Below are positions 20,834-34,786 of a stretch of DNA of 64,000 bases, piece after piece. Source of the DNA: Vallitaleaceae bacterium 9-2 (lineage in GTDB: Bacteria > Bacillota > Clostridia > Lachnospirales > Vallitaleaceae); contig CP121691.1 of assembly GCA_038396585.1 (NCBI GenBank), positions 372,001-436,000 of the forward strand, read 5' to 3'. Position 1 is the first letter of the stretch. Each line of letters starts with the position of its first letter. The position numbers and the translations under genes were made by a program. Under the pieces are notes generated by a model, which ran no database searches, was not told where the DNA came from, and worked only from the letters and a program-made list of their open reading frames with translations.

Positions 20834-20879
20834 GGCTATGCAAACGGGAGTTAGTCTAGAAAAAAATAGATATTCTATA

Positions 20880-20910
20880 TTGACATTAGGTCGGTACTAA
20901 GGTTTATAAT
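20880..20910 (+). promoter_or_regulatory. MerR-type promoter (19-bp spacer) before the acetyltransferase
   Basis: TTGACA (20880-20885) and TATAAT (20905-20910) match consensus but are 19 bp apart, the lengthened spacing that MerR activators correct by twisting DNA. TTAG and CTAA (20887-20890 and 20898-20901) are short inverted arms within the spacer. The MerR gene convergent with the acetyltransferase is the likely activator. Confidence 0.65.
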
Positions 20911-20956
20911 TTGCTTATCAATGTTAATAAACTCTATTAAATAGGTGGTGAATTAT

Positions 20957-21607
20957 ATGCATGTGTTACAGGAAATAGAAATAAGAAGATTTAAGGAAAA
21001 AGATGCGCAAAGTGTTTGTGAAATTTTTCTGCATGCCTTTAAAAGCAAATTGATGACGTTAACAAGCTTGAGTGATGAGAAGCTTCTGGAATTTTTAATT
21101 GACGTCAATTTTGCAGACCAAATTAATCATGAAGGTTTTTTTGTAGCTACAAAAGATGATGATGTGCTTGGTGTTATTAATATACAGTGGAAAAATCATC
21201 CGATTGAATCCAAAAAAATTAATATATCCACCTTAAGCCTTATAGAAAAGTATGGTTTGCTTAATTTGGTGAAGTGTATTATCGGAGCTACACTGTTAAC
21301 CAAAAAACAAAGGCAAGATGAAGGCTATATTGATTTTGTGGGGGTGCACCCTAAGGCACGCAAGATGGGAATAGGAACAAAATTGATAAACCATTGTAAA
21401 GAATTTTGTAGCAACGATTTGAAGTTAAGCAAATGTACATTATATGTAGCAAGTTCAAACACAAAAGCTATTGCATTATACAAGAGACTTGGATTCGAAG
21501 GGGTAAATACAACAAAAAGTTTTTTGAGTAAATATCTTTTTAATGAAAAAGAGTTAATCTTTATGTGTGCAAACATAGAAAAGGCCTACTTTAGTATTCA
21601 GTCTTGA
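20957..21607 (+). CDS. GNAT-family N-acetyltransferase
   Basis: A 216-residue acetyltransferase that transfers the acetyl group of acetyl-CoA to an amine. The acetyl-CoA loop (motif A) is clear in the stretch VGVHPKARKMGIGTKLINH; the following strand (KCTLYVASSNTKAIALYK, then RLGFEGV) is the usual motif B. I chose ATG 20957, 8 nt after AGGTGG, instead of the GTG at 20945 that lies in the ribosome site. Preceded by a MerR-type promoter and next to a convergent MerR gene and a drug pump, it may act on polyamines or drugs like BltD. Substrate not established. Confidence 0.88.
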   Translation: MHVLQEIEIRRFKEKDAQSVCEIFLHAFKSKLMTLTSLSDEKLLEFLIDVNFADQINHEGFFVATKDDDVLGVINIQWKNHPIESKKINISTLSLIEKYGLLNLVKCIIGATLLTKKQRQDEGYIDFVGVHPKARKMGIGTKLINHCKEFCSNDLKLSKCTLYVASSNTKAIALYKRLGFEGVNTTKSFLSKYLFNEKELIFMCANIEKAYFSIQS

Positions 21608-22422
21608 AGCACAAGAGAACGAGATGAAGCATCTTTGTTATGAGTTAATATTTGGATTTCGTAGTATATTTGACCATTATTAAAAATAGAAAGCAAAGAG
21701 CTTTCAGATATGATTAATTTACCTCTAGTTGAAATCTTATTATCGTTAATATAATTCAAAAAACTAAGAACTTGGCTTTGTACATGTGTATAATCATCGG
21801 CAAAAAAACCGAAACATAGATATTGTCCGGCTTCTAAGAGATAATCAGCGACACTGGGCTTAAGGAAGGTTGTACATACATGGAGAGAATCGTCATCACA
21901 AATGTATGTAATATCCGTATCAAAAAGGGTGGGATTTTTTATTTTTTCCAAGGCGTTGTCATAAAAAGTCTTTGTTGAAACAAAATCTGCTTGATTGACG
22001 TGATAAATTAGTTTCATAAAACGTTCATTTAAGTCGTTGATGCGGTACTTTTCTAAGGAGCTTTCCAAAGCCGAGATTTTATCCAAAACTTCAAGGCTAA
22101 GATTTTTAAGATGAACGAGATGATCTATTTGTTTGTTGATATCGAATAGGTTTTCTTGCATCATATGCACATATTCTTGATGGGAATAATCCTTGAGAGA
22201 TTTTCTAATTTGGCTTACAGGTATGTTAAATTTTCTAAGAAGTAAAATATGCTCTAATTGATATACTTGCTTTATATCATATAGCCTATACCCGTTTTCA
22301 TCGATTATATTTGGGCTAAATATTTTCTTTTCTTCAAAATATCTGATTTGATGTGTTGATATATTCAATAGTTTAGCTAATTCTCCAATTGTTATAAGCG
22401 TTCTTATAGCATAACACCTCAC
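21598..22422 (-). CDS. MerR-family regulator (BltR/BmrR-like), start uncertain
   Basis: The MerR domain reads ITIGELAKLLNISTHQIRYF, with EENGYRLYD-like NIIDENGYRLYDIKQVYQL next, then a long linker helix and a C-terminal effector domain. Its last 10 bp overlap the end of the acetyltransferase gene. The start is unclear. The open frame continues upstream to 22521, but that part is antisense to a dead transposase. GTG 22422 is the best ordinary start but has a weak ribosome site; an ATG at 22413, out of frame, stops after two codons. The transposon insertion may have replaced the native 5' end. It probably controls the 19-bp-spacer promoter of the acetyltransferase gene. Confidence 0.8.
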   Translation of the reverse strand: MRCYAIRTLITIGELAKLLNISTHQIRYFEEKKIFSPNIIDENGYRLYDIKQVYQLEHILLLRKFNIPVSQIRKSLKDYSHQEYVHMMQENLFDINKQIDHLVHLKNLSLEVLDKISALESSLEKYRINDLNERFMKLIYHVNQADFVSTKTFYDNALEKIKNPTLFDTDITYICDDDSLHVCTTFLKPSVADYLLEAGQYLCFGFFADDYTHVQSQVLSFLNYINDNKISTRGKLIISESSLLSIFNNGQIYYEIQILTHNKDASSRSLVLQD

Positions 22423-22437
22423 TTTCTTACTCTTCTT

Positions 22438-23267
22438 GAAGAGAACCTTAATCTTCGTGATTATATTCCTGTTACTTTTTATAATAAATACTATGCTTCC
22501 ACTGGTAGACCCAGAGAGCATGGGCTTTTATCCATGTTATAGGCTTTGATTCTTTAACGTATTTTTTCCATTACTGAAGATACCCTTTTACTAACTTTCC
22601 TTAAGTTCTCAAAGGAACTTAGAGACTTTTGTGGTTTTTCTCGTGTTCCTGATGCCTCTAGGCTTACTCGTTTCAAACAAGATTTTCTTTCTGAAATACA
22701 AACTTTTTTTGACCATCTTGTGGATATCACAGAACCTATCTGTCAAAAGATTGATCCTAATAAAACCGCCATGACTATTTTTGATACTTCTGGTATTGAA
22801 GCATTTGTTTCTGAAAATAATCCAAAGTATGCTAATAAGATTATTAAACAGCTTAAGGCTTATAAAAAAACTAAAAAACTGGATGCTTCTTATGATCCCA
22901 ACAAGGCAGCTTATGGTTCTATGCCAACGCATGCATCTTCTAATGATGTAATCAAGCAACTTTATATTAATGGACATTTTTGTTACTTAATGATTTAAAA
23001 TTCGAAAAGGCTTTTATACCATTAAATGCACGTTCAAAGTTATCTTATCCTGACTGCTCTATTAATAGCGAGGGTATTCCTACATGCCCTTATGATAATA
23101 CACTTCCAATGAAACATGAAGGCATTGCCAAACGCAAAACTCAGAATGAAAAAACATTACATGCCGATTTACTTCTCACAGGGATTACTCAATTATTAAC
23201 CGTTGTTTTGGCTGACAAGATCAATAAACACCAATATATAAGGAGCGTAAAACCATTAATTGCTTAA
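22438..23267 (+). pseudogene. decayed DDE transposase (IS relic)
   Basis: Read in one frame, 22438 onward gives a transposase N-terminus (ENLNLRDYIPVTFYNKYY, then STGRPREHG). It is broken by TAG at 22540-22542 and TAA at 22555-22557, both where Gln (CAG/CAA) would fit, then continues FCGFSRVPDASRLTRFKQ. Around 22976-22990 the frame shifts and the central catalytic part is missing; the text resumes as LLLNDLKFEKAFIPLNARSK and, after another apparent loss, ends with LTGITQLLTVVLADKINKHQ and a TAA at 23265. So there are two nonsense mutations, one frameshift and two internal deletions. The element is dead. Terminal repeats and target duplication were not found. The DUF772-type layout is recognised, but the IS family name is not certain. 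Confidence 0.85.
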
Positions 23268-23300
23268 ACACATAACACTTACTTTTAAAATATGACGATT

Positions 23301-23329
23301 CTTCAATTGGTGAAGTCTGGTCTTTTTTT
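23301..23329 (+). terminator. possible terminator after transposase relic
   Basis: CTTCA (23301-23305) pairs with TGAAG (23311-23315), followed after 6 nt by seven T (23323-23329). The stem is short. The stretch 23330-23409 shows nothing else. Confidence 0.4.
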
Positions 23330-23409
23330 ATTTTGAAGTTTCGCAATTACCTATCATTCTATTATAACATGAATAGGCCTTTTTTCTTTTAAACTGTGGA
23401 GGAAAGTTG

Positions 23410-23552
23410 TGGTATAATTATATAAAAGAGCGGAATATGCAAGAGGATTACTTAAGATTTTACTAACGAATCCTAAGATTTTATATGTTCATTACAACGA
23501 AAAACAATTAATATTGTAATTAGTGAATTTTTTAACGTTGCATATAGAACAT
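23410..23552 (+). promoter_or_regulatory. promoter and structured leader of the YesN-type operon, with 21-bp-spaced direct repeats
   Basis: An extended -10 TGGTATAAT lies at 23410-23418. Downstream, TAAGATTTTA occurs twice (23453-23462 and 23474-23483), exactly 21 bp apart, the spacing of AraC half-sites. The leader also has nested inverted repeats: ATATGCAA (23435-23442) with TTGCATAT (23538-23545), and ATTACAA (23491-23497) with TTGTAAT (23514-23520); a third possible pair is ATGTTC (23485-23490) with GAACAT (23547-23552). The direct repeats are candidate sites for the AraC-type response regulator encoded next. Confidence 0.5.
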
Positions 23553-23573
23553 GAATAGTGTGAGGATAGTGTT

Positions 23574-24302
23574 ATGTATAAGGTTTTTTTACTTGATGAT
23601 GATGAACTAATTCTACAAGAGTTACTTGAAAGGGTTCCATGGATGGATAACGGTTTTGAGGTTATCGGTTATGAGAGCAATCCCGTTCAGGCGTTGCGGC
23701 GTATACCACAGCTGTGCCCGGATGTTATTTTTAGTGATCTAAAAATGCCGGATATTGATGGGCATGCCTTTATGAAATCGTTGATTGATTCGAATTTGCA
23801 GTTTGAATTTGTTATGTTAAGTGCGTATGGTACTTTTGATGATGCGCGAACTTTTTTCAACCATTCCGGCTTCGACTATATTTTAAAACCAGTACAGATA
23901 GAGGAGCTGCAATTAGTTTTAGAAAGGCTAGCCAATAAACTCTCCAAAAAACGGGCATTTTCGCCCAATACATCAAAAGAAAACATCACTCCTGCATTTC
24001 TTGAGCTCACAGACTATCTAGAGAATAATTTTCAAGAAAAATTTTCATTAAATAAGCTTTCAAAGCAATTTGCACTGAGCCCAGGCTATATATGTAATCT
24101 TTTTTCAAAATATTATAATACGACGTTGACCTGTTTTCTTACAAATCTAAGAATGAAGCATGCAGCTTCACTCATTCTTCAAAGTAATCTTTCGTTTAAG
24201 GAAATAGCTATTGAATGTGGCTATGTTGACTACTATTATTTTAATAAGGTGTTTAAAGACTACTATGGAATGGCGCCAAGTAAATATATTCAACAAGATT
24301 AA
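23574..24302 (+). CDS. AraC-type response regulator (YesN-like)
   Basis: A 242-residue regulator. Receiver domain: acidic residues at 8-10 (LLDDDE), phospho-acceptor Asp55 (IFSDLKMPD), and Lys105 (YILKPVQ). The C-terminal AraC HTH (about 145-242) shows FSLNKLSKQFALSPGYICNL and the second helix-turn-helix with FKEIAIECGYVDYYYFNKVF. It is shorter than many YesN proteins (about 500 aa), having no long linker. ATG 23574 follows GAGGA. It is the first gene of a compact unit: regulator, two solute-binding proteins, then the YesM-type kinase. Phosphorylation by that kinase is the expected input; the direct repeats in its own leader suggest autoregulation. Confidence 0.92.
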   Translation: MYKVFLLDDDELILQELLERVPWMDNGFEVIGYESNPVQALRRIPQLCPDVIFSDLKMPDIDGHAFMKSLIDSNLQFEFVMLSAYGTFDDARTFFNHSGFDYILKPVQIEELQLVLERLANKLSKKRAFSPNTSKENITPAFLELTDYLENNFQEKFSLNKLSKQFALSPGYICNLFSKYYNTTLTCFLTNLRMKHAASLILQSNLSFKEIAIECGYVDYYYFNKVFKDYYGMAPSKYIQQD

Positions 24303-24351
24303 TATAAAAAATTATCCCGAATACAATCTATGATAGGAATGGATAGAGTCA

Positions 24352-25914
24352 ATGGATGTTAAAAAAAAGCACAAAAAGATTGGTTTTTTAACGCTACTTC
24401 TATTAATTAGTGTACTCATTATGGTTTTTGTAGTTGAAAGACAGGCAATGAAGGCTGGGACGGATAAAAAAGTCATCACCATTGCTATTGTTCAAGATGA
24501 TCGTGTACAAGATTATACGACGAATTATTATACAAACTGGCTTGAAGCGCAGACAAATTGCTCAATTGAATTTGAGTATATTCCCCATGGATACAAAAAA
24601 GAATATATAAAGGCATTGCTTACAGCAGAGCCGGGAAAAATTGATGTTGTGATTTTACCTCAAGATCAATCTATAGTCACGAATGAAGAGTTTTTAAGTT
24701 ATGTGAGCAAAGGGCTAGTCTATAACCTAAATAGCTTGACCCATGACAAGACAAACTACTATAGTATTTTAAATCATCCGGGGCATCCTGGACTCAAAGA
24801 GAGCCTATTGATTGATGAGCAGCTGTATTATTTTCCTAATGCAAAAACGTCAAGAACCAGTAAGAACTTTCAGACATTTTGGATAAATGTCAAATGGTTA
24901 AAAGCCTTGGGGCTTGAAATTCCTACAACCACAAAAGAACTATATGAAGTGCTAAAAGCCTTTCATGATAGGGATCCTAACGGTAACGGTATTAGGGATG
25001 AACTGCCGCTAGTTGGATGTGAGGCCGACTACGCCCTTCAAAGCTATAACTTTCTTCTCAATGCTTTCGCGTACAACGATCCAGTTAATTTACGATTTGT
25101 AAAAAAAGATAGCGTGTCCATTTATTCTCCGACAACCGATGAGTTTCGTGAGGGATTAAAGTATTGCCATAAGCTATATTCAGAAAACTTATTGGCAGAG
25201 ATTAGTTTTTCTTTTTCTCAGAATCAAATATTAGAAACGGTGTGCTCGCCGCAAGATCTTGTGGGAGCCTTTGCTAGTCAGAGTATCGTTGATAATATAT
25301 ATGCCAATGCACCGTCAATTTTATCGTGCTACGTCCAAGTGCCACCGTTAATAGGACCCAATGGATATCAAAATGCCATATATACGATGCCAAAACCTTC
25401 GATTGGAGCATTTATTCCGGCAAATGCTAAGAAGCCTGTGGAAGCTTTTAAAGTCCTAGATGCTATGATTTCAGAAGAAGGCGCATTAATTGGAGCTTTT
25501 GGCGAGTATGATGTCGACTGGACATTTTCCCTTGGGGAAGACCTCTCACTTTATGGAAATAAAGCAGAAATTGTGACGTTAAATTATCTTAAGAGTAAAA
25601 CTCAAAATAAAAATTATGCAGGGGCAGGCGTTCGCTATGTTGATGCCACGTATATAGACGGAGTAGCTTGGAATGGGGATAATTCCTTGGTAGAATTTTT
25701 GGATGCACGTGCGGTAAAAGTCTATGAGCCCTTTTATAACAGAGGACTCCAAGAAGACATACGTTATATATCCGCCCAAGTGGATGAACCTGTGGAATTA
25801 GCCAGATATACTGATGAGATGATAACAAAATTTATTACCGGAGAATGTGATATATATTCCAAGGACCAGTGGAAAGCTTTTGTTGAGCGTAGTAACGAGC
25901 TGATGGGAGGATAA
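24352..25914 (+). CDS. membrane-anchored extracellular solute-binding protein (family 1-like)
   Basis: A 520-residue protein with an N-terminal hydrophobic helix (residues 12-27, IGFLTLLLLISVLIMV) and no lipobox cysteine, so it is probably held by an uncleaved anchor outside the membrane. The body has the layout of large sugar/peptide-binding proteins of the LplA/family 1 type: TIAIVQDDRVQDYTTNYYTNW, then IDVVILPQDQS, a calcium-like loop HDRDPNGNGIRDELPL (near 203-218) typical of the group, and KPVEAFKVLDAMIS near the C-terminus. It sits 49 bp after the response regulator and 4 bp before a second binding protein, and no permease or ATPase gene is present. A role in presenting ligand to the kinase is therefore more likely than plain uptake. 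Confidence 0.85.
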   Translation: MDVKKKHKKIGFLTLLLLISVLIMVFVVERQAMKAGTDKKVITIAIVQDDRVQDYTTNYYTNWLEAQTNCSIEFEYIPHGYKKEYIKALLTAEPGKIDVVILPQDQSIVTNEEFLSYVSKGLVYNLNSLTHDKTNYYSILNHPGHPGLKESLLIDEQLYYFPNAKTSRTSKNFQTFWINVKWLKALGLEIPTTTKELYEVLKAFHDRDPNGNGIRDELPLVGCEADYALQSYNFLLNAFAYNDPVNLRFVKKDSVSIYSPTTDEFREGLKYCHKLYSENLLAEISFSFSQNQILETVCSPQDLVGAFASQSIVDNIYANAPSILSCYVQVPPLIGPNGYQNAIYTMPKPSIGAFIPANAKKPVEAFKVLDAMISEEGALIGAFGEYDVDWTFSLGEDLSLYGNKAEIVTLNYLKSKTQNKNYAGAGVRYVDATYIDGVAWNGDNSLVEFLDARAVKVYEPFYNRGLQEDIRYISAQVDEPVELARYTDEMITKFITGECDIYSKDQWKAFVERSNELMGG

Positions 25915-25918
25915 TGGA

Positions 25919-27106
25919 GTGAAGATAAAAAACATAGGTATAGCGACATTGATTTGCACGGCATTATCCGTTTTGTTAATTGCATGTACAAGCAGCGCAA
26001 ATCAACAAACCACACAACAGATGTTTTTAAAGGACTGGGAAGTAGCGGCTAATCTTGATGCAAAGCAAACACCAGATACATTATATCAGGCGGCGTTAAA
26101 AGAAGACATTTTAACCATCTATTCTGTGACAACACGCTTATTTGATACAAAAAAGTATTTTGAAGAAGCATATCCAGGATTGACAGTTGAAATAAAAGAT
26201 ATTCGAAGTAAAGATGCGATTAAGATGATACGCAATAACTATGAGGCGAATGCCTTTGAATGTGATATTCTTATCTGCAGTGACAGCGCGGGTAACCTTT
26301 ATAATGAGCTTATTGAACCTGGATTGATTTTACCCTATGTTCCATGGGATATTGAGCCAAAAATCAAAAGCAATCATATAAATAGTAAGTTGAATTTTTT
26401 GGATGAAGTTATTTTATTTGCGTATAATAGTGCGCGTTATAATCAAAGTCCAATCTCCAATATATGGGAGATTACCCAAGAGCAATATAAAGATAAAATT
26501 GTCATGGCATCACCTTTGAGTTCATTTAGCACCTATGGTTTTTGTGCGACAGTATTAACAGAAGAAGAAAAAATGCTCGCTGCCTATAGGGCATATTTTG
26601 GACAGGAGCCTGTTTTAGACAAGGGGGTATCGATAGGTGAATATTTTTGGGAGCAGGCGGCAAAAAATATAGTTTTTGTGAATACGAGTGATGAGGTGGC
26701 AGAAGGCATCGGAAGTTCAGGGGAAAACGGATATGACTTAGGGATTATGCTGTCGAGTAAATTAAGGCTATGTGAACTTGGCTACCATTTTGAACCGATC
26801 TATGAACTGGACCCATTTGCAGCAGTGTATACGCCCAATAGTGTTATGTTAGTTGCAGGGGGCAAGAATACGAATTCGGCAAAACTTTTTGTAAGGTTTT
26901 TACTCGGTGAAACGGATGGAACAGGCAAAGGTTATATGCCTTTTTCTACACCGGGAACATGGTCATGTCGGGAAGATATTCAAGATGGCAATGATGTCAG
27001 CTTAGAAGATATGGATGTGGTAAATTACGCCAACAGTTTCATTGATAACAACACAGATTATTTGGACCATTTCTTTCAAGGGTTATTAAAGGAGAATATT
27101 AATTAA
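25919..27106 (+). CDS. lipoprotein solute-binding protein (AfuA/Fbp-like fold)
   Basis: A 395-residue lipoprotein: signal sequence with the lipobox LLIAC, lipidated Cys23. The mature part resembles periplasmic binding proteins of the iron/putrescine type: LKEDILTIYSVTTRLFDT, then YFEEAYPGLTVEIKD, ECDILICSDSAG and NSVMLVAGGKNTNSAKLFVR. GTG start at 25919, 8 nt after GGGAGG and 4 bp after the previous stop, so it is translated with that gene. It differs in length and fold from the binding protein before it, so the two are not a tandem duplication. With a histidine kinase 4 bp downstream, it probably helps sense a ligand outside the cell. The ligand is unknown. Confidence 0.85.
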   Translation: MKIKNIGIATLICTALSVLLIACTSSANQQTTQQMFLKDWEVAANLDAKQTPDTLYQAALKEDILTIYSVTTRLFDTKKYFEEAYPGLTVEIKDIRSKDAIKMIRNNYEANAFECDILICSDSAGNLYNELIEPGLILPYVPWDIEPKIKSNHINSKLNFLDEVILFAYNSARYNQSPISNIWEITQEQYKDKIVMASPLSSFSTYGFCATVLTEEEKMLAAYRAYFGQEPVLDKGVSIGEYFWEQAAKNIVFVNTSDEVAEGIGSSGENGYDLGIMLSSKLRLCELGYHFEPIYELDPFAAVYTPNSVMLVAGGKNTNSAKLFVRFLLGETDGTGKGYMPFSTPGTWSCREDIQDGNDVSLEDMDVVNYANSFIDNNTDYLDHFFQGLLKENIN

Positions 27107-27110
27107 TAGA

Positions 27111-28808
27111 ATGGTTACCCATAAGAATTCACTCTTAAAAAAATTGGAACTCACCTTACTTGCTCTTGGAATTGCTGTACTTTTCATATGGTTTTTTTTC
27201 TATGTATCGATGCAAAATATTTTACAGCAGCATACGATTCATAATATGGAGCAAACATCTTTGCGCATTATCTCGCAGTTAAATCAATCCTTTCTACACT
27301 TAGAAGAGGTTTCTTTTGCGATGTCAAAAAATGACAACGTTAAAAAAATGTTGTTATCCAAAGAACATATTGAATTTTATCAGAAGGCGGAAGCGGTCAA
27401 TACAGACCTTAATGCAATGATAAAAAATTCAATGTTTGCTGAAAAAGTCATTATTTTTTCTAATGACAATCGCTTTTATCGTTTTTCTGGACAATTAAAT
27501 AATACCAGCATCAAACGCTTACAAGGTTTAATCAGGAACAATAAATATGAAAAGCATATTCAAATCTCACTTGATGGTGAAAGATATATTGGATATACTA
27601 TATCGATTTTTGATACGGGAGAAAACCCATGTGGACATATTGTTATGCTTATTAGTGAAAAAGAGATCCAGCAACTGTTTTTGAGAGCAGAAGGGGATGA
27701 AAATATAACGATACTCTTAGGGGCTATGGATACGATTATTACATCAAATCAAACCGCGCTTCAAGGGATGCGTATTGGCGAGTTTGAAAAAAGTCAGACA
27801 CATGTTATACGTAGAAACATTGGATTTACACCATTTGAGCTGATTATTTCATATACAGATACAGATAAAAGTTTACATTTGTTTTTTTTATTGGCCCTTG
27901 TGATATTGATTTTAATGCTGCTCGTTGTTTTTTGGACTTTTATTAGTGTATGGAAAAAGAATTTTTTTATACCCATTCAAAAAATTATTACGGAGGTTGA
28001 GACGTATGATAGTGAGACGCACAGCTGTTTGAAACTTACAGGATATGATTATTTGGATGGATTAATACATCGGATTAATGATATGATTAGCCGCATTGAG
28101 ATTAAAGAACGGGAGCTTTATAAAGCAACCTTATCATTACATGAGGCAGAAATTGTCAAACAGCAGTCTTTAATCGTTTCCCTTAAGAAGCAAATTAGTG
28201 CACATTTTACGATAAATGTTCTTAGTATTATCAAAGCGCTTTCTAATCAAGGGGAAAATAGTAAAGCAGGATTGCTGTGTGATGGGCTATCCTCACTCTA
28301 TCGATATGCGAACGAAGGGGATTCTTATATTAATGGTTTAGAAGAATTTTTTATTCTAAGAAAATATATAGGTATTATGGAAATACGCTATCCACATCGT
28401 TTTTGTGTGGAGATTGATATGGAGGATTACTTAGAGGAAATCAAATTGCCAAGAATGCTTTTACAGCCGATTGTAGAAAATAGTATTGTTCATGGATTTA
28501 ATAGTAGTAAGGCAATGAACAATATTTTGGGAACGATACATATATACAGCCGATTGTATCGTGATAAAATCGATATCATTGTTGAAGATAATGGGTGTGG
28601 AATGGACAAAGACGCTTTGGAACGGCTTCAAGTACAGATTAATCATATTTCTACAGAAGAAAGTATGGAAGTTGAAGGACTGTCCCATGTAGCGCTTATC
28701 AACATTCAAAGAAGAGTTATCTCCTATTTTGGAGATACCTATGGTCTTCATATCGAATCTAAGCAACAACAAGGGACAAAAGTCATACTATCCCTTCCGA
28801 TAATTTAA
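27111..28808 (+). CDS. YesM-family sensor histidine kinase
   Basis: A 565-residue kinase. TM helices near 12-32 and 258-283 flank an extracellular domain of about 220 residues. After a HAMP-like segment and coiled coil comes the His_kinase domain: KKQISAHFTINVLSIIKAL, with phospho-acceptor His365 in a variant of the usual QINPHFLYNxL (Ser-Ala for Asn-Pro, Thr-Ile for Leu-Tyr). The ATPase motifs are LLQPIVENSIVHGF (about 451-464), DNGCGM (493-498) and a C-terminal GTKVILSLPI. It is the partner of the AraC-type regulator at 23574, from which it is separated by the two binding-protein genes; all four are within a few bp and form one operon. A terminator follows. Confidence 0.92.
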   Translation: MVTHKNSLLKKLELTLLALGIAVLFIWFFFYVSMQNILQQHTIHNMEQTSLRIISQLNQSFLHLEEVSFAMSKNDNVKKMLLSKEHIEFYQKAEAVNTDLNAMIKNSMFAEKVIIFSNDNRFYRFSGQLNNTSIKRLQGLIRNNKYEKHIQISLDGERYIGYTISIFDTGENPCGHIVMLISEKEIQQLFLRAEGDENITILLGAMDTIITSNQTALQGMRIGEFEKSQTHVIRRNIGFTPFELIISYTDTDKSLHLFFLLALVILILMLLVVFWTFISVWKKNFFIPIQKIITEVETYDSETHSCLKLTGYDYLDGLIHRINDMISRIEIKERELYKATLSLHEAEIVKQQSLIVSLKKQISAHFTINVLSIIKALSNQGENSKAGLLCDGLSSLYRYANEGDSYINGLEEFFILRKYIGIMEIRYPHRFCVEIDMEDYLEEIKLPRMLLQPIVENSIVHGFNSSKAMNNILGTIHIYSRLYRDKIDIIVEDNGCGMDKDALERLQVQINHISTEESMEVEGLSHVALINIQRRVISYFGDTYGLHIESKQQQGTKVILSLPII

Positions 28809-28842
28809 CGCTAAAATGTGAATATTTTACCAAGAAATGTGA

Positions 28843-28875
28843 AGCCTCTCAATTTTTTAATTGAGGGGCTTTTTA
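28843..28875 (+). terminator. intrinsic terminator between kinase and surface-protein genes
   Basis: AGCCTCTCAATT (28843-28854) pairs with AATTGAGGGGCT (28859-28870) with one G-U pair and a 4-nt loop, followed by TTTT. It lies only 50 bp before the next start codon. TATAAT at 28876-28881 directly follows but has no -35, so the next gene may depend on read-through or on a promoter that overlaps this hairpin. Confidence 0.82.
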
Positions 28876-28924: not shown

Positions 28925-31900
28925 ATGAACAACAGAGTATTATCGTGGGTTATTGTTATATGTATGATAATGACCTTGTTGCAAGGGGAAGTCTTGGCGG
29001 GTACGGTTGAGGCACCACAACCGCCTGAAAATCTTAAGGTTTCAATAGGGGAGTATTATCAAACACGACCAACACTAAAATGGGATGAAAAGGATTATGA
29101 CTGCAAATATGGGGTGCATTTTAGTCGAATCAACACAGTAAATATACGTTCAAATAATTGGATGGCGATAGAAGAAATCGATCTTGAACAGATCAAGAGT
29201 AAGAGCACGGAAGAATCCTGGCAATATCAGTTAAATGGCAGTAATGATGTGGTTGAACTAAAGACAATTGTATCAACAAGTGCCTATGACACAGAGTCTG
29301 AGTATGTGCGATTTCCCTATACGATGAACTTTATGTCGACAAAAAAAGCAGCTATAGATGTGACCAAATTTGTTAAAGATTCAGATGAAAATTATACGAC
29401 GGTATTGTATACAATCAAAGGGTTGCCGGCAAGTAGTACAGCAAATTTGGTGTATACAGACAATCCTTCAGAAGGTTATAGAAAAAAGATACTTGAAATT
29501 AATGCAGAGGGGGTTTTAGTATTTGAAGATTTGATTGAAAATACTTCCACTGATCCGATGGAAGATGATAGCTTTGATCGCTATCTCATAGTATTTACAG
29601 ATCCGGCAGTGAATGAAACCGATAAAATATATTCAGTAAATCAACAAATATATCCACTGAATAAGGCGATAACGCCTACATATCAACATTCGCAAACTTT
29701 AACATTTGATCAAAATCAATTTGATGAGTATGGTGGAGGAAATTATGAGCTTAGGATAGAACAAGGAAAATCCAAACAAATCCTTGCCACGAATTCGGCA
29801 GGAACAGAAGGGGGGTCCATACTATATTATTCTTCATTTCCAGACAGTGAGTCACCTAAAGTATTGGTACACCCAACGACCGGAGTTGTAACAGCGACGG
29901 GGGAGGTTGGAGATATATGGTGGGTACATGCGCTAGCAGGATCAACCCAAAACCCGGATGGAACAGGAAATTATGCACCGGCTTCCAATGCCTATATGGT
30001 TAGGATTGTAGCTGATGTAGGCGAGGGTACATACATGCCACCATCTGATATGAAGTTTGAATTGGATTCCCAAGACAGATATGCAACATTGCCGCTAATT
30101 TCAAGAAAAGATCTTGATGCATATTATCCGGATGCATATATTAGCTATGTTGCAGAATCAGAATATATGACGGATTGGAGTGGGTTAGCGTCTTCACCAT
30201 TGGCAACGGTTGAATCGAGCATGTTTATCGATAAAAAGGTTAATGATGAATGGGTGCATTCGATCAAGCAATATACACTGTACAATGAGTTTGACGTTAA
30301 TGGAGAAACAATGTATTCAGAGGAAGTTCCCTTTGACTGCGATGTGACTATAACGAACAAATATTTGGATGAATTAACAGCAACATATAATACAAATATA
30401 GAGAATATAGATGGTGAAGATAAGACAGTATATACATATACAGTTTCTGATTTGCCTTTGGAAAGAACAACAGTCTTTATGTGCACATCTGACATTGGGA
30501 TGCGAACAGGGATAGATTTTTCTCATAGTGAAGACGGAACGCTTATTTTTCAAGACTATGTTACACAGCGATATCCTAGCGGACGCTTTGGATTAGCAAC
30601 GGATACAAGAGATAAGGATTTGGCAGTATATGTAACGGCTTTTACAAATCCTACTATCTCAGGAACAAAGGTGAGTTTTACACAAGAAACCCATAAATTG
30701 AATTTTATACAAGATGATGGTTTGGTAGCGCAAGACATTGTATGGGATACTGGCGATGGGGGAATTGCAACAACCTATGGTACAGATATTACTGGAAAAA
30801 AAGCAACAAATTTAAGTACAGGCGGTGGAGGAATTATCTACTCAAGCAGTGATACTTCTGTAGCTACGGTTAACTCAAGTACAGGAGAACTAACCATCAT
30901 TGGTGCCGGAGAGGCGAAGATTACAGCAACTGCATCAAAAGTAGAGGGAACATATAGAGAGAGCGCCATAACGTATCCATTGACGGTTCATAAGAAAAAT
31001 ATTACAGCAAAAGTGGATACTAAGACCAAAGTTTTTGGCGAGGCGAATCCTGAATTAACCTATACAATATCAAATACGGACTTAGTTGGTGATGATGTGA
31101 AGCAAGACTTGGGCATTAACTTATCAACAGCGGCTACAGTTACGTCTGATGTAGGAGAATATACAATTACAGGTTCGACTTCAAGCAAGAACTACTTCGT
31201 AAAAATAGAACCTGCAATCTTAACCATCACCAAGGCTTTGGCACCGAATATAAAAGATACAGTTCGAACCTTATACTATGCGATGGACTATACAAATCTT
31301 GATATCGCGATATCCACCTTGCCTCAAGATTGTGGAACAATAAGTGTTGTGGCAGGAGCTGTCACGGGGGATAAGGCGATGCTTGATGGTGATGTGCAGA
31401 CGACGGACATGGGGCTAAAGCTTTCAACACATGCAGGAAGCGTTGGAGATTCTATAGCCATCCCTATTACCGTGTCAATGCAAAACTATGAAGATGTTCA
31501 TACCAAAGTCATTATAACGCTGATGGATAAAACGCTTGTGACCATTGCAGGTGTTGAGGTGGAAAGTAAAAAATATGACGCCAATGCGATAGCGGCTGTG
31601 GGTAAGCCAGTGGGAACCTATAACGATGAGAATACACCTATCATCTATACAGGCGATGATTTTCATTTTATTTGGAGGTCAGGCGCAACGACGCTTTCGC
31701 AAGCACCCAAAGATACAGGAGAGTATTCGTTGACCGTTAAAATACCTGATACAAATGCTCAATATATCGGACAGCTGGGACCTATGAATTTTACAATAAC
31801 ACCTGCAGCATTAACCATTAAGCCAGCGGATCTAAAAATATATAATGGTGCAGACCTTCCGACGCCATCAGATATAGATTATATTGGACTTAAAGGTCAA

Positions 31901-33334
31901 GACACAAAAGCTGTAGTAAAGGGTTATGATTCTATGCCTGCGATAAAAATCTATCAAGCAGATGGGGTGAGTGCGTTGACCAGTAGTACAGTTAACGGAA
32001 CATATCCTATTAAATTTGTGCGTACGCCATCTTCGCTTAGTGCAGATAACTACACCATAACAGTAACAAGTGGTGCCTTGACGATTACAACAAAATCTTC
32101 TGGCGGCTCAGGCGGTGGAGGCGGCAGCGTAGGAGGTGGTTCAACACCAGCTATTGGTGATGAGAAGGAAGTAAAAACAAGTGTGACCTCTACGGTGAAA
32201 AATCGACGTGCACAAGCATCGGTGGATAGCAACATGGTTACAAAAGCCTTGGAAAAGATAGCCAAGGGAGCAACAATTGCTTTTAATGTAGAGAATACAA
32301 AAAATGTAGATGCGGTGACGGTTCAGATGAAGAACCAATCAATAAAGGCGTTGGCAGATAGTAAAACAGGACTGGTAACGATTGCCTCAGAAGTGGGAAT
32401 AATGGATATCGAGGATAAGACACTGGAATCGATTGCAAAGCAAGCAGGTACATCAGACATTAGCATTAATTTAGGAAAAGTAGATAAAGACAAAGAATTG
32501 AATGCAAGGCAAAAAGCGGCTATAGGTGAAGCGCCTGTATATGATATTTCGATTAAAGCGGGAGATGCATATATTTCTGATTTTGATGGAGGATTGCTCA
32601 CCTTAAGTATTCCATATACATTAAAAGAAGGGGAGGAACCTTCAGGGATTGTGGTCTGGTATGTGGATGATTATGGCAATATCAAGAAGGTAACGACCAT
32701 GTATGACGTAAAAACCAAGCATGTTATTTTTACAACCAATCATTTATCCCTTTATGCGATTGGCTATGACCAAACCAAAACATGGGTTAATCCATTTGAT
32801 GACGTTTATAGCACCGCATGGTATTTTGAGGCGATTCGCTATGTAAATGCTAATAAGCTAATGGCTGGTGTAGCTAAGGATACATTTGACCCTGAAGGAG
32901 ACATGACCCGAGCGATGATTATAACCATTCTCTATAGGTTAGAGAAAGAGCCGGCAGTTGATACAAACCGTCAGCAATTTTCTGATGTTGATAAGGATGC
33001 TTGGTATAGTTATGCGATAACCTGGGCATTTGATAATGGAATTATCAAAGGATACGATAACAATAAATTCGGACCGATGGATTGCATTACACGAGAACAG
33101 ATGAGTGTGATATTAATGAATTATGCAAAATATAAAAATATAAATACTACACAATCAAGAGATATATCAAGTTTTACAGATAGTTCACAAATCAGTGATT
33201 GGGCACTTGAAGCCATGCAATGGGCTTATCAAGAGGGGCTTATTTCAGGTAAAGCCAATAATAGACTTGATGCTAGAGCAAAAGCCTCAAGGGCAGAAGC
33301 AGCCATGGTGCTTAAGCGATTTATGGAAGAATAA
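28925..33334 (+). CDS. large SLH-anchored surface protein with MBG-like domains
   Basis: A 1469-residue exported protein. Signal peptide 1-25 (LSWVIVICMIMTLLQ, cleavage after VLA). The first 650 residues form a large region without a named domain. An Ig-like BIG_2 segment follows (SSDTSVATVNSSTGELTIIG), then MBG-type repeats (ITAKVDTKTKVFGEANPELT, about 689-770, and similar pieces to about 1055). A Gly/Ser linker (about 1058-1074) leads to a domain at about 1085-1280, then three SLH domains from about 1291, 1352 and 1417. MBG and SLH parts indicate a wall-bound, extended adhesin. ATG 28925 has AAGGAGG upstream. It lies downstream of the YesN/YesM unit, past a terminator, and may be its target. 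Its SLH region resembles that of the protein at 9929-14806. Confidence 0.9.
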   Translation: MNNRVLSWVIVICMIMTLLQGEVLAGTVEAPQPPENLKVSIGEYYQTRPTLKWDEKDYDCKYGVHFSRINTVNIRSNNWMAIEEIDLEQIKSKSTEESWQYQLNGSNDVVELKTIVSTSAYDTESEYVRFPYTMNFMSTKKAAIDVTKFVKDSDENYTTVLYTIKGLPASSTANLVYTDNPSEGYRKKILEINAEGVLVFEDLIENTSTDPMEDDSFDRYLIVFTDPAVNETDKIYSVNQQIYPLNKAITPTYQHSQTLTFDQNQFDEYGGGNYELRIEQGKSKQILATNSAGTEGGSILYYSSFPDSESPKVLVHPTTGVVTATGEVGDIWWVHALAGSTQNPDGTGNYAPASNAYMVRIVADVGEGTYMPPSDMKFELDSQDRYATLPLISRKDLDAYYPDAYISYVAESEYMTDWSGLASSPLATVESSMFIDKKVNDEWVHSIKQYTLYNEFDVNGETMYSEEVPFDCDVTITNKYLDELTATYNTNIENIDGEDKTVYTYTVSDLPLERTTVFMCTSDIGMRTGIDFSHSEDGTLIFQDYVTQRYPSGRFGLATDTRDKDLAVYVTAFTNPTISGTKVSFTQETHKLNFIQDDGLVAQDIVWDTGDGGIATTYGTDITGKKATNLSTGGGGIIYSSSDTSVATVNSSTGELTIIGAGEAKITATASKVEGTYRESAITYPLTVHKKNITAKVDTKTKVFGEANPELTYTISNTDLVGDDVKQDLGINLSTAATVTSDVGEYTITGSTSSKNYFVKIEPAILTITKALAPNIKDTVRTLYYAMDYTNLDIAISTLPQDCGTISVVAGAVTGDKAMLDGDVQTTDMGLKLSTHAGSVGDSIAIPITVSMQNYEDVHTKVIITLMDKTLVTIAGVEVESKKYDANAIAAVGKPVGTYNDENTPIIYTGDDFHFIWRSGATTLSQAPKDTGEYSLTVKIPDTNAQYIGQLGPMNFTITPAALTIKPADLKIYNGADLPTPSDIDYIGLKGQDTKAVVKGYDSMPAIKIYQADGVSALTSSTVNGTYPIKFVRTPSSLSADNYTITVTSGALTITTKSSGGSGGGGGSVGGGSTPAIGDEKEVKTSVTSTVKNRRAQASVDSNMVTKALEKIAKGATIAFNVENTKNVDAVTVQMKNQSIKALADSKTGLVTIASEVGIMDIEDKTLESIAKQAGTSDISINLGKVDKDKELNARQKAAIGEAPVYDISIKAGDAYISDFDGGLLTLSIPYTLKEGEEPSGIVVWYVDDYGNIKKVTTMYDVKTKHVIFTTNHLSLYAIGYDQTKTWVNPFDDVYSTAWYFEAIRYVNANKLMAGVAKDTFDPEGDMTRAMIITILYRLEKEPAVDTNRQQFSDVDKDAWYSYAITWAFDNGIIKGYDNNKFGPMDCITREQMSVILMNYAKYKNINTTQSRDISSFTDSSQISDWALEAMQWAYQEGLISGKANNRLDARAKASRAEAAMVLKRFMEE

Positions 33335-33460: not shown

Positions 33461-33510
33461 TAAGAAAAAAGTAGAAAAGCGCATTCTGTAGGATGCTGGA
33501 GGAGCTGCTT

Positions 33511-33984
33511 ATGGCAAAAATATTGGTTGTATATTATTCTTATTCAAATACAACAAAAAATTTGGCGGAAGATATTGCAATTATTACGGATGGAGATATT
33601 CGAGAACTATGTCCTAAAGAACCGTATTCATTTACCTACCATGGAGCGACAAAGGAAGTAAGAAATGAAATTGAAAGAGGATATTGTCCAAAACTTTTAT
33701 CTGGAAATGAACCTGTTGATGATTATGATTATATTTTTGTAGGAACACCGAACTGGTTTAAGTCTTTTGCACCACCACTATTAAGCTTTTTACGTAGCTT
33801 TGACTGGAAGGATAAAACGATTATTCCGTTTTGTACACATGGCGGTGGCGGATTTGGGCAGATTGTAGCGAATATAACTACAGAGTGTCCCGGGGCAATA
33901 ATATTATCAGGATTTGACACAACAAGTGATTTTGATGACACAACAGTTCAAGCATGGATTGATGACATGGAGATTTTGGAATAG
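33511..33984 (+). CDS. flavodoxin-family protein
   Basis: A 157-residue flavodoxin. The FMN phosphate loop is at the N-terminus (ILVVYYSYSNTTKNLAEDI), followed by the isoalloxazine loops VGTPNWFKSFAPP and THGGGGFGQIV. It carries electrons in the cytoplasm or serves as a flavin reductase such as those in quinone defence (Flavodoxin_4 type). I chose ATG 33511, which stands 8 nt after GGAGG; the ATG at 33493 lies before that site. It is the first gene after a 19-bp-spacer promoter and is followed 37 bp later by a TipA-like MerR gene, so its expression is probably induced by a compound bound by that regulator. Confidence 0.9.
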   Translation: MAKILVVYYSYSNTTKNLAEDIAIITDGDIRELCPKEPYSFTYHGATKEVRNEIERGYCPKLLSGNEPVDDYDYIFVGTPNWFKSFAPPLLSFLRSFDWKDKTIIPFCTHGGGGFGQIVANITTECPGAIILSGFDTTSDFDDTTVQAWIDDMEILE

Positions 33985-34021
33985 ACAACTATGCTATAAC
34001 CAAAGGCCACGAGGGGAGAAA

Positions 34022-34786
34022 ATGAGAAAGCAGTCTTATACAGTCAAGGAGATTACGAAAATAACAGGGATTACACGTAGGACGCTACACTACTATGATG
34101 AAATAGGGTTATTAAAGGCAACACAGATATCTGCTCAAGGATATCGCTTATATACGGTGGAGGATTTTGAACGTTTGCAAATTATTCTTTTCTTGAAAGA
34201 GATGGACCTGTCATTGAAAGAAATCGCTGGTATATTACGATTATCACGGCACGAGCAAAACAAAGTACTAAAAGGTCATTACAAGATTTTATTTAAAAAA
34301 AGGCAAAAGCTTGAAAAAATGATGTCAAACTTAGAACTCTATTTGGCTGGAGAAAACATCTTGGCACTAGATATTTTTGAAGATGCAAGTGTGCTTCCAT
34401 TAAAGGAGCAACATAAGCGTGAAGCAAAACTTGTTTATGGTGAAACAGAAAAATATAAAGAATATGAGGAAAATATGTCGCGATGGACCGATGCCGAAAA
34501 AGAAAAGATCTTTGAAGCATTTGGAGAAGAGATGGACAAGATATTTATGCTATTTGGAGAACATATAAAAAAATCTCCAGGATCTAACGAAGTACAAGCC
34601 ATTGTAAAACAGTGGGCAGATAGCTTTCAAGATTTTTTCGAATGCGATAGGGAAATACTCAAATGTATTGCACACACATATACTTACGATAGTCGATTCA
34701 AAAAATATATAAACCAATTTAGTGATGAAGACTTGAGCGACTTCATCTATAGGGCAATTCTTAACTACTGTAGTGATGAACAATAG
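34022..34786 (+). CDS. MerR-family regulator with TipAS antibiotic-recognition domain
   Basis: A 254-residue protein. The MerR domain reads YTVKEITKITGITRRTLHYY and QGYRLYTVEDFERLQIILFL; a coiled dimerisation helix follows (about 75-110). The C-terminal 110 residues (TDAEKEKIFEAFGEEMDKIF, then KQWADSFQDFFECDREILKC and YINQFSDEDLSDFIYRAI) match the globin-like TipAS domain that binds thiopeptide and other antibiotics. ATG 34022 follows GAGGGGAGA; an upstream open frame from 33914 overlaps the flavodoxin gene and was rejected. As second gene of the unit it should activate its own promoter at 33430-33460. Confidence 0.92.
   Translation: MRKQSYTVKEITKITGITRRTLHYYDEIGLLKATQISAQGYRLYTVEDFERLQIILFLKEMDLSLKEIAGILRLSRHEQNKVLKGHYKILFKKRQKLEKMMSNLELYLAGENILALDIFEDASVLPLKEQHKREAKLVYGETEKYKEYEENMSRWTDAEKEKIFEAFGEEMDKIFMLFGEHIKKSPGSNEVQAIVKQWADSFQDFFECDREILKCIAHTYTYDSRFKKYINQFSDEDLSDFIYRAILNYCSDEQ

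Follow-up and report, generated by a model that had tools for sequence, protein, structure and literature searches.

Two substrate-binding proteins and a YesM-type two-component system in one permease-free operon: a candidate sensor for surface-protein expression in a Vallitaleaceae bacterium

In Vallitaleaceae bacterium 9-2, an operon of four genes encodes an AraC-type response regulator (RR), two substrate-binding proteins (SBPa and SBPb) and a YesM-type sensor histidine kinase (HK). The features of this operon suggest a permease-free four-component sensor in which two substrate-binding proteins (SBPs) inform one kinase, and in which the regulator activates its own operon as well as the adjacent gene of a surface protein; we estimate the probability of this reading at about 0.6. 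On the outside of the membrane, SBPa and SBPb would convey their ligand state to the one kinase through its extracellular domain, and the kinase would, as expected from its family, phosphorylate the adjacent regulator. The regulator would then bind direct repeats spaced by 21 bp, which are found in the sequence 5' of the RR gene and 5' of the SLH/MBG gene at 28925; this binding would activate the operon as well as the SLH/MBG gene, so that the output would be a cell-surface protein and not a nutrient importer. An earlier note on this DNA had drawn attention to the two-component system that encloses two different binding proteins and no transporter; the repeats at exactly 21 bp before the RR gene and, in several species, before the adjacent secreted or surface-protein gene are new in the present analysis.

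The operon and its products

Positions refer to the window, which is the whole stretch of 64,000 nucleotides that was analysed (Table 1). The gene order, the strands and the gaps of 4-49 bp that had been reported before all agree with the coordinates 23574-28808, with 49 bp between RR and SBPa and 4 bp each between SBPa and SBPb and between SBPb and HK.

Table 1. Features of the operon and of its surroundings, in positions of the window
Feature	Position	Strand	Description
Operon promoter region	23410-23573		5' of the RR gene
Candidate operon operator	23453..23483	+	perfect 10-base TAAGATTTTA repeated at exactly 21 bp
RR	23574..24302	+	receiver and AraC-type HTH, 242 aa; Pfam Response_reg and HTH_18/HTH_AraC
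SBPa	24352..25914	+	SBP_bac_1/AlgQ-like, N-terminal membrane anchor, 520 aa
SBPb	25919..27106	+	SBP_bac_11/AfuA-like lipoprotein, 395 aa, GTG start
HK	27111..28808	+	YesM-type sensor histidine kinase, 565 aa, two TM segments, H-box LKKQISAHFTINVL
Candidate SLH operator	28814..28843	+	perfect 9-base AAATGTGAA at exactly 21 bp around ATTTTACCAA (28824-28833)
Terminator-like hairpin, then T run	28841..28872	+	end of the four-gene operon; folding -19.4 kcal/mol, z -6.6
SLH gene, probable target	28925..33334	+	secreted 1469-aa protein, MBG_2 domains and three SLH domains

At the domain level, RR and HK form a YesM/YesN-type two-component system, with all the Pfam matches for this assignment above the cut-off. 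The Asp, Ser and Lys pocket residues of RR are present in the alignment, and HK contains His_kinase (PF06580) and HATPase_c domains. A dCache match of HK was sub-threshold. The variant H-box of the kinase, SAHFTINV, had been noticed before and is real, as Q..PHF..N is present in 24 of the 26 YesM kinases that the genome has besides HK, and the search pattern did not hit the remaining two; in the pattern search, AHF occurred in this HK alone among all 27. Compared to the usual Q.(N)PHF(L)(F/Y)N, AHFTIN keeps the His, the Phe and the Asn and loses the Pro. Because all kinases of the clade described below that have the H-box read (A/S)HFT(V/I)N, SAHFTINV is, judged from these alignments, a trait of the whole clade and no defect of this copy. 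HK is probably active, since the His, Phe and Asn as well as most of the ATP-site motifs are kept, and its assignment to the YesM/YesN type by domains stands, as the usual H-box is a common sequence trait and not a strict definition. In comparison with the metagenome-assembled genome UBA4039 of the same species, dN/dS is 0.09-0.16 across the four operon genes and 0.17 for the SLH gene, and purifying selection thus acts on all five.

SBPa had been described as a family 1-like protein with a membrane anchor, and it indeed matches SBP_bac_1 and has an N-terminal anchor without a lipobox Cys; in several related species it is a lipoprotein and not anchored by a transmembrane segment. AlgQ1 and AlgQ2 are among its closest solved structures, and alignment with its relatives showed a conserved DxNxNGxxDE motif, in SBPa in the form DPNGNGxxDE, which we take to resemble the calcium site of AlgQ-type proteins. 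A search of plasmids revealed only distant SBPa-like proteins. The description of SBPb as an AfuA-like lipoprotein likewise holds, with an SBP_bac_11 match and a lipobox, LIAC, that can be seen directly. Its profile reaches AfuA and iron-binding proteins in the PDB as remote relatives, and no chain named HptA was reached by a PDB sequence search with SBPb at 1e-3. That the two proteins differ in fold, as had been proposed, is not established: the families differ, yet SBPb also matches SBP_bac_1 weakly in Pfam (5.7e-4). A profile-profile comparison of the two gave only a weak local match, and both are members of the superfamily of type II periplasmic binding proteins. AlphaFold2 models of SBPb and HK, based on three-row alignments, had a pLDDT of 36.

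The arms of the terminator-like hairpin are kept in Anaerovorax sp. IOR16 (locus L012), and a simple terminator scan did not list this hairpin. On the other side of the operon, a region of 2.5 kb (20865-23372) with a GNAT gene, a MerR-type gene and a degenerate transposase-like remnant (about 22550-23270) is swapped for unrelated 568 bp in UBA4039 (L011 4887-5454), and the breakpoint lies only about 80 bp 5' of the candidate operon operator.

Conservation of the gene set

Relatives were found by SBPb searches (about 1590 genome searches counted, with overlapping groups). The earlier note had regarded a lack of conservation as speaking against its proposal, and the set was found to recur in about a dozen genomes. 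The order RR-SBPa-SBPb-HK is present in the window, in L011 of the same species, and in 10 further species (L012, L027, L121, L028, L122, L123, L124, L125, L126 and L128, in the last of which the SBPb gene is broken in the assembly and the kinase is short). Two further relatives are rearranged: L127, which shares its genome with L124, reads RR-SBPa-HK-SBPb, and L083, where the contig ends, reads HK-SBPa-SBPb. No importer genes were found inside the set in any related operon; only in L126 does an ABC operon directly precede the set, and this ABC operon has an SBP of its own. This conservation without internal importer genes supports, on the level of gene content, the sensory, non-transport role that had been supposed for both binding proteins. 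Beyond the nearest relatives, the identity to the proteins of the window is about 36-51% for SBPb, 30-45% for SBPa and 29-47% for HK.

The SBPb proteins of these operons are well separated from other homologues, as full-length operon members score at least 351 bits with the SBPb profile and the others at most 246. In a maximum-likelihood tree, the 12 sensor-linked SBPb rows form one clade with a support of 99/94, outside the importer-linked clades, and a single label change suffices, compared to 10.6 expected in shuffles; the other rows were labelled ABC by default, including a few without visible importer genes (e.g. L030, at a contig end).

It could be argued that the binding-protein and two-component genes are chance neighbours that are co-transcribed without any functional connection. 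A published case asks for such caution: in P. aeruginosa, neither AgtB nor PA0602, two SBPs that are encoded nearby, was bound by AgtS (PMC11113362), and by analogy the vicinity of SBP and kinase genes does not have to mean a link. As all four genes have been retained through a divergence to 30-45% identity and through rearrangement, a mere neighbourhood is very improbable here. It is also unlikely, though less so, that only one of the SBPs is a sensor subunit, as in HptARS or CuaDSR, and that the other one is passive, serving as a ligand buffer or scavenger. The CuaD and HptA systems use one sensing SBP per kinase, and in the related species SBPa varies in its anchoring and in one loop, which fits a passive partner, but none of the intact operons found, whether rearranged or not, has one SBP gene without the other, and both genes are under purifying selection.

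Relation to ABC importers

The operon contains neither a permease nor an ATPase gene, as had been noted before, and thus not the permease and ATPase genes that accompany the SBP in an AfuABC-type importer. The closed 3.81-Mb genome has 119 matches to the permease family PF00528, and the closest of these lie about 39 kb from the operon on its downstream side and 116 kb from it on its upstream side. Among the 27 YesM kinases of this genome, HK is the one farthest from any permease (39.7 kb), and 16 of the others are within 5 kb of one.

One or both SBPs might still serve a shared or distant ABC permease in addition, and the operon would then be the part of a split importer that carries the regulator. 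We consider this rather improbable. The AfuA-like homologues outside the clade mostly adjoin ATPase and permease genes, and the ABC operon upstream of the set in L126 would also fit a split importer, but the related operons have no importer genes inside the set, permease matches lie near the seven other SBPa-like paralogues of the genome, and each of the fused AfuB-type permeases examined has its own SBPs. The co-regulated partner permease that the earlier note had considered as a counter-argument was not found in the genome, and only one SBP-less pair is left as a candidate for it. This LplB/YtcP-type permease pair at 77 kb (G000:C1:77386-79235; L150 3386-5235) lies amid sulfatase-like genes with no SBP gene within about 4 kb. 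If there is a distant partner, this pair is the likeliest one left, but it may use the product of an SBP-like gene that lies downstream at about 90 kb (L156 6854-8347).

Elsewhere in the same genome, at about 992-994.5 kb (L145 7958-10501), a lipoprotein gene lies directly 5' of a YesM kinase gene beside an AfuABC-like operon, and this is likely a single-SBP sensor.

Candidate operators and the surface-protein gene

Two candidate operators flank the operon, one before RR and one before the SLH gene, which follows the operon also in L011 and L012 (58% identity). The operon operator contains ATTTTACTAA (23457-23466) in a block that is conserved in L011 and L012, and a related ATTTTACCAA is found upstream of the RR gene in L127. 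The SLH operator is conserved in L012. Repeats of at least 9 bases at period 21 occur in only four places of the window, two of which are these candidate operators, and both of them contain ATTTTACYAA. This 10-mer alone does not depart from chance in the window (2 found, 0.86 expected), and the mutual similarity of the two operators is not significant on its own (30/100 shuffles). The exact pattern ATTTTACYAANNAA has five matches in the 3.81-Mb genome, two intergenic ones that flank the operon and three in coding sequence, and a reversed control pattern has six; as the pattern was derived from the two window sites, only the position of the other matches is informative. By the exact motif, the candidate operators in the genome are restricted to the own operon and the SLH gene; a looser regulon may exist and may include a transporter gene, as is regulated in HptARS, CuaDSR and XylFII-LytS.

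The significance of the repeats comes from a test across species and not from the pair in the window. For each of ten loci, this test scored the stretch that separates the last gene of the operon from the gene that follows it (in L083 the region 5' of the secreted-protein gene). Period 21 had the top summed repeat score among the periods 12-40, with 99. The highest value was 92 in 400 shuffles and 94 in 3000 draws that used other upstream regions of these loci, so that none of the 3000 was as strong; the test is not fully independent, because the period was first noticed in part of the same data, and taking the maximum over all periods covers most of this. The signal comes mainly from L083, L123, L124, L126, L127 and the window, where the next gene encodes a secreted protein or lipoprotein or belongs to a cluster that starts with a small surface-cluster protein (L126). 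A clear downstream 21-bp repeat is absent in L122, L125, L028 and L027/L121. In L123, the site 5' of the secreted-protein gene is identical to the SLH operator of the window in 26 of 30 positions, at the same position, and the best of 20 shuffles reached 24. These data support a regulator that would bind tandem sites two helical turns apart and act on the adjacent surface-protein gene, and the conserved repeats likewise favour the SLH gene at 28925 as a target, as the earlier note had proposed. A Pfam domain shared among the neighbouring secreted proteins of the other species was sought and not found.

Some further observations were made near these sites. In L083, a 17-base perfect direct repeat of period 21 lies 5' of the secreted-protein gene (671-708), and the same upstream region has a 16-base run at period 11 (714). 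Near the operon in L027 (12137-17000), L121 (2-3230) and L126 (1345-6458) there is a homologous cluster whose secreted or membrane proteins carry short N-terminal motifs like APxGYxxDxxTGLYY; it lies directly 3' of the kinase gene in L126 and past a chemoreceptor gene in the other two. Downstream of the SLH gene in the window (33493-34786), the open reading frames of a flavodoxin-like protein and a TipAS/MerR regulator overlap in different frames.

Comparison with known sensor systems

In the known sensors of this kind a kinase is informed by one SBP, and the usual output is the activation of an importer. The operon shares with such three-component sensors that SBP genes are in an operon with a kinase and a response regulator and without importer genes, and it departs from the rule of one kind of sensing SBP per kinase, as every intact relative has two SBP genes. 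The system is best read as a two-receptor variant of HptARS/CuaDSR-type systems, which are the closest working models. We take HptA to be of the AfuA-like class, and the kinase and the regulator of HptARS to be of the YesM and AraC type, respectively. Like in the operon described here, HptA of Staphylococcus aureus is encoded together with the kinase and the response regulator, in a three-gene operon without an ABC importer, but there is only one SBP, and the system is known to control uhpT, a transporter gene (PMC6291074). In CuaDSR of Ruminiclostridium cellulolyticum, a dedicated family 1 sensing SBP binds the outer domain of the kinase, which acts with a regulator that has an AraC HTH; in contrast to the present case, there is one sensing SBP, an ABC importer operon is controlled, and the sensing and transport SBPs are separate genes in two operons (PMC10384115). 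XylFII-LytS of Clostridium beijerinckii, as far as it is cited in PMC10384115, forms a complex of two SBPs and two kinase outer domains, but with one kind of SBP, of another family, and with xylose transport as the target. The only lead to two SBPs on one kinase in the open-access literature searched is AgtS, where binding failed (PMC11113362), and a kinase served by two SBPs from different families, with a surface protein as output, was not found there.

The physical separation of the two proteins is a further difference. In BvgS/EvgS-type kinases, two binding-protein-like VFT domains are fused in tandem within the kinase and feed it, whereas here two separate binding proteins of different families would do so. 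Only tentatively can it be proposed that the two SBPs both bind to the kinase and combine the signals of two ligands, be it as an AND gate, by antagonism or as a relay, that they control surface display instead of uptake, and that they represent a two-receptor class across several Bacillota families. The short gene set and the two defined candidate operators make the proposal directly testable, and if it is true, systems of this kind are able to join two signals from outside and to govern what is shown on the cell surface.
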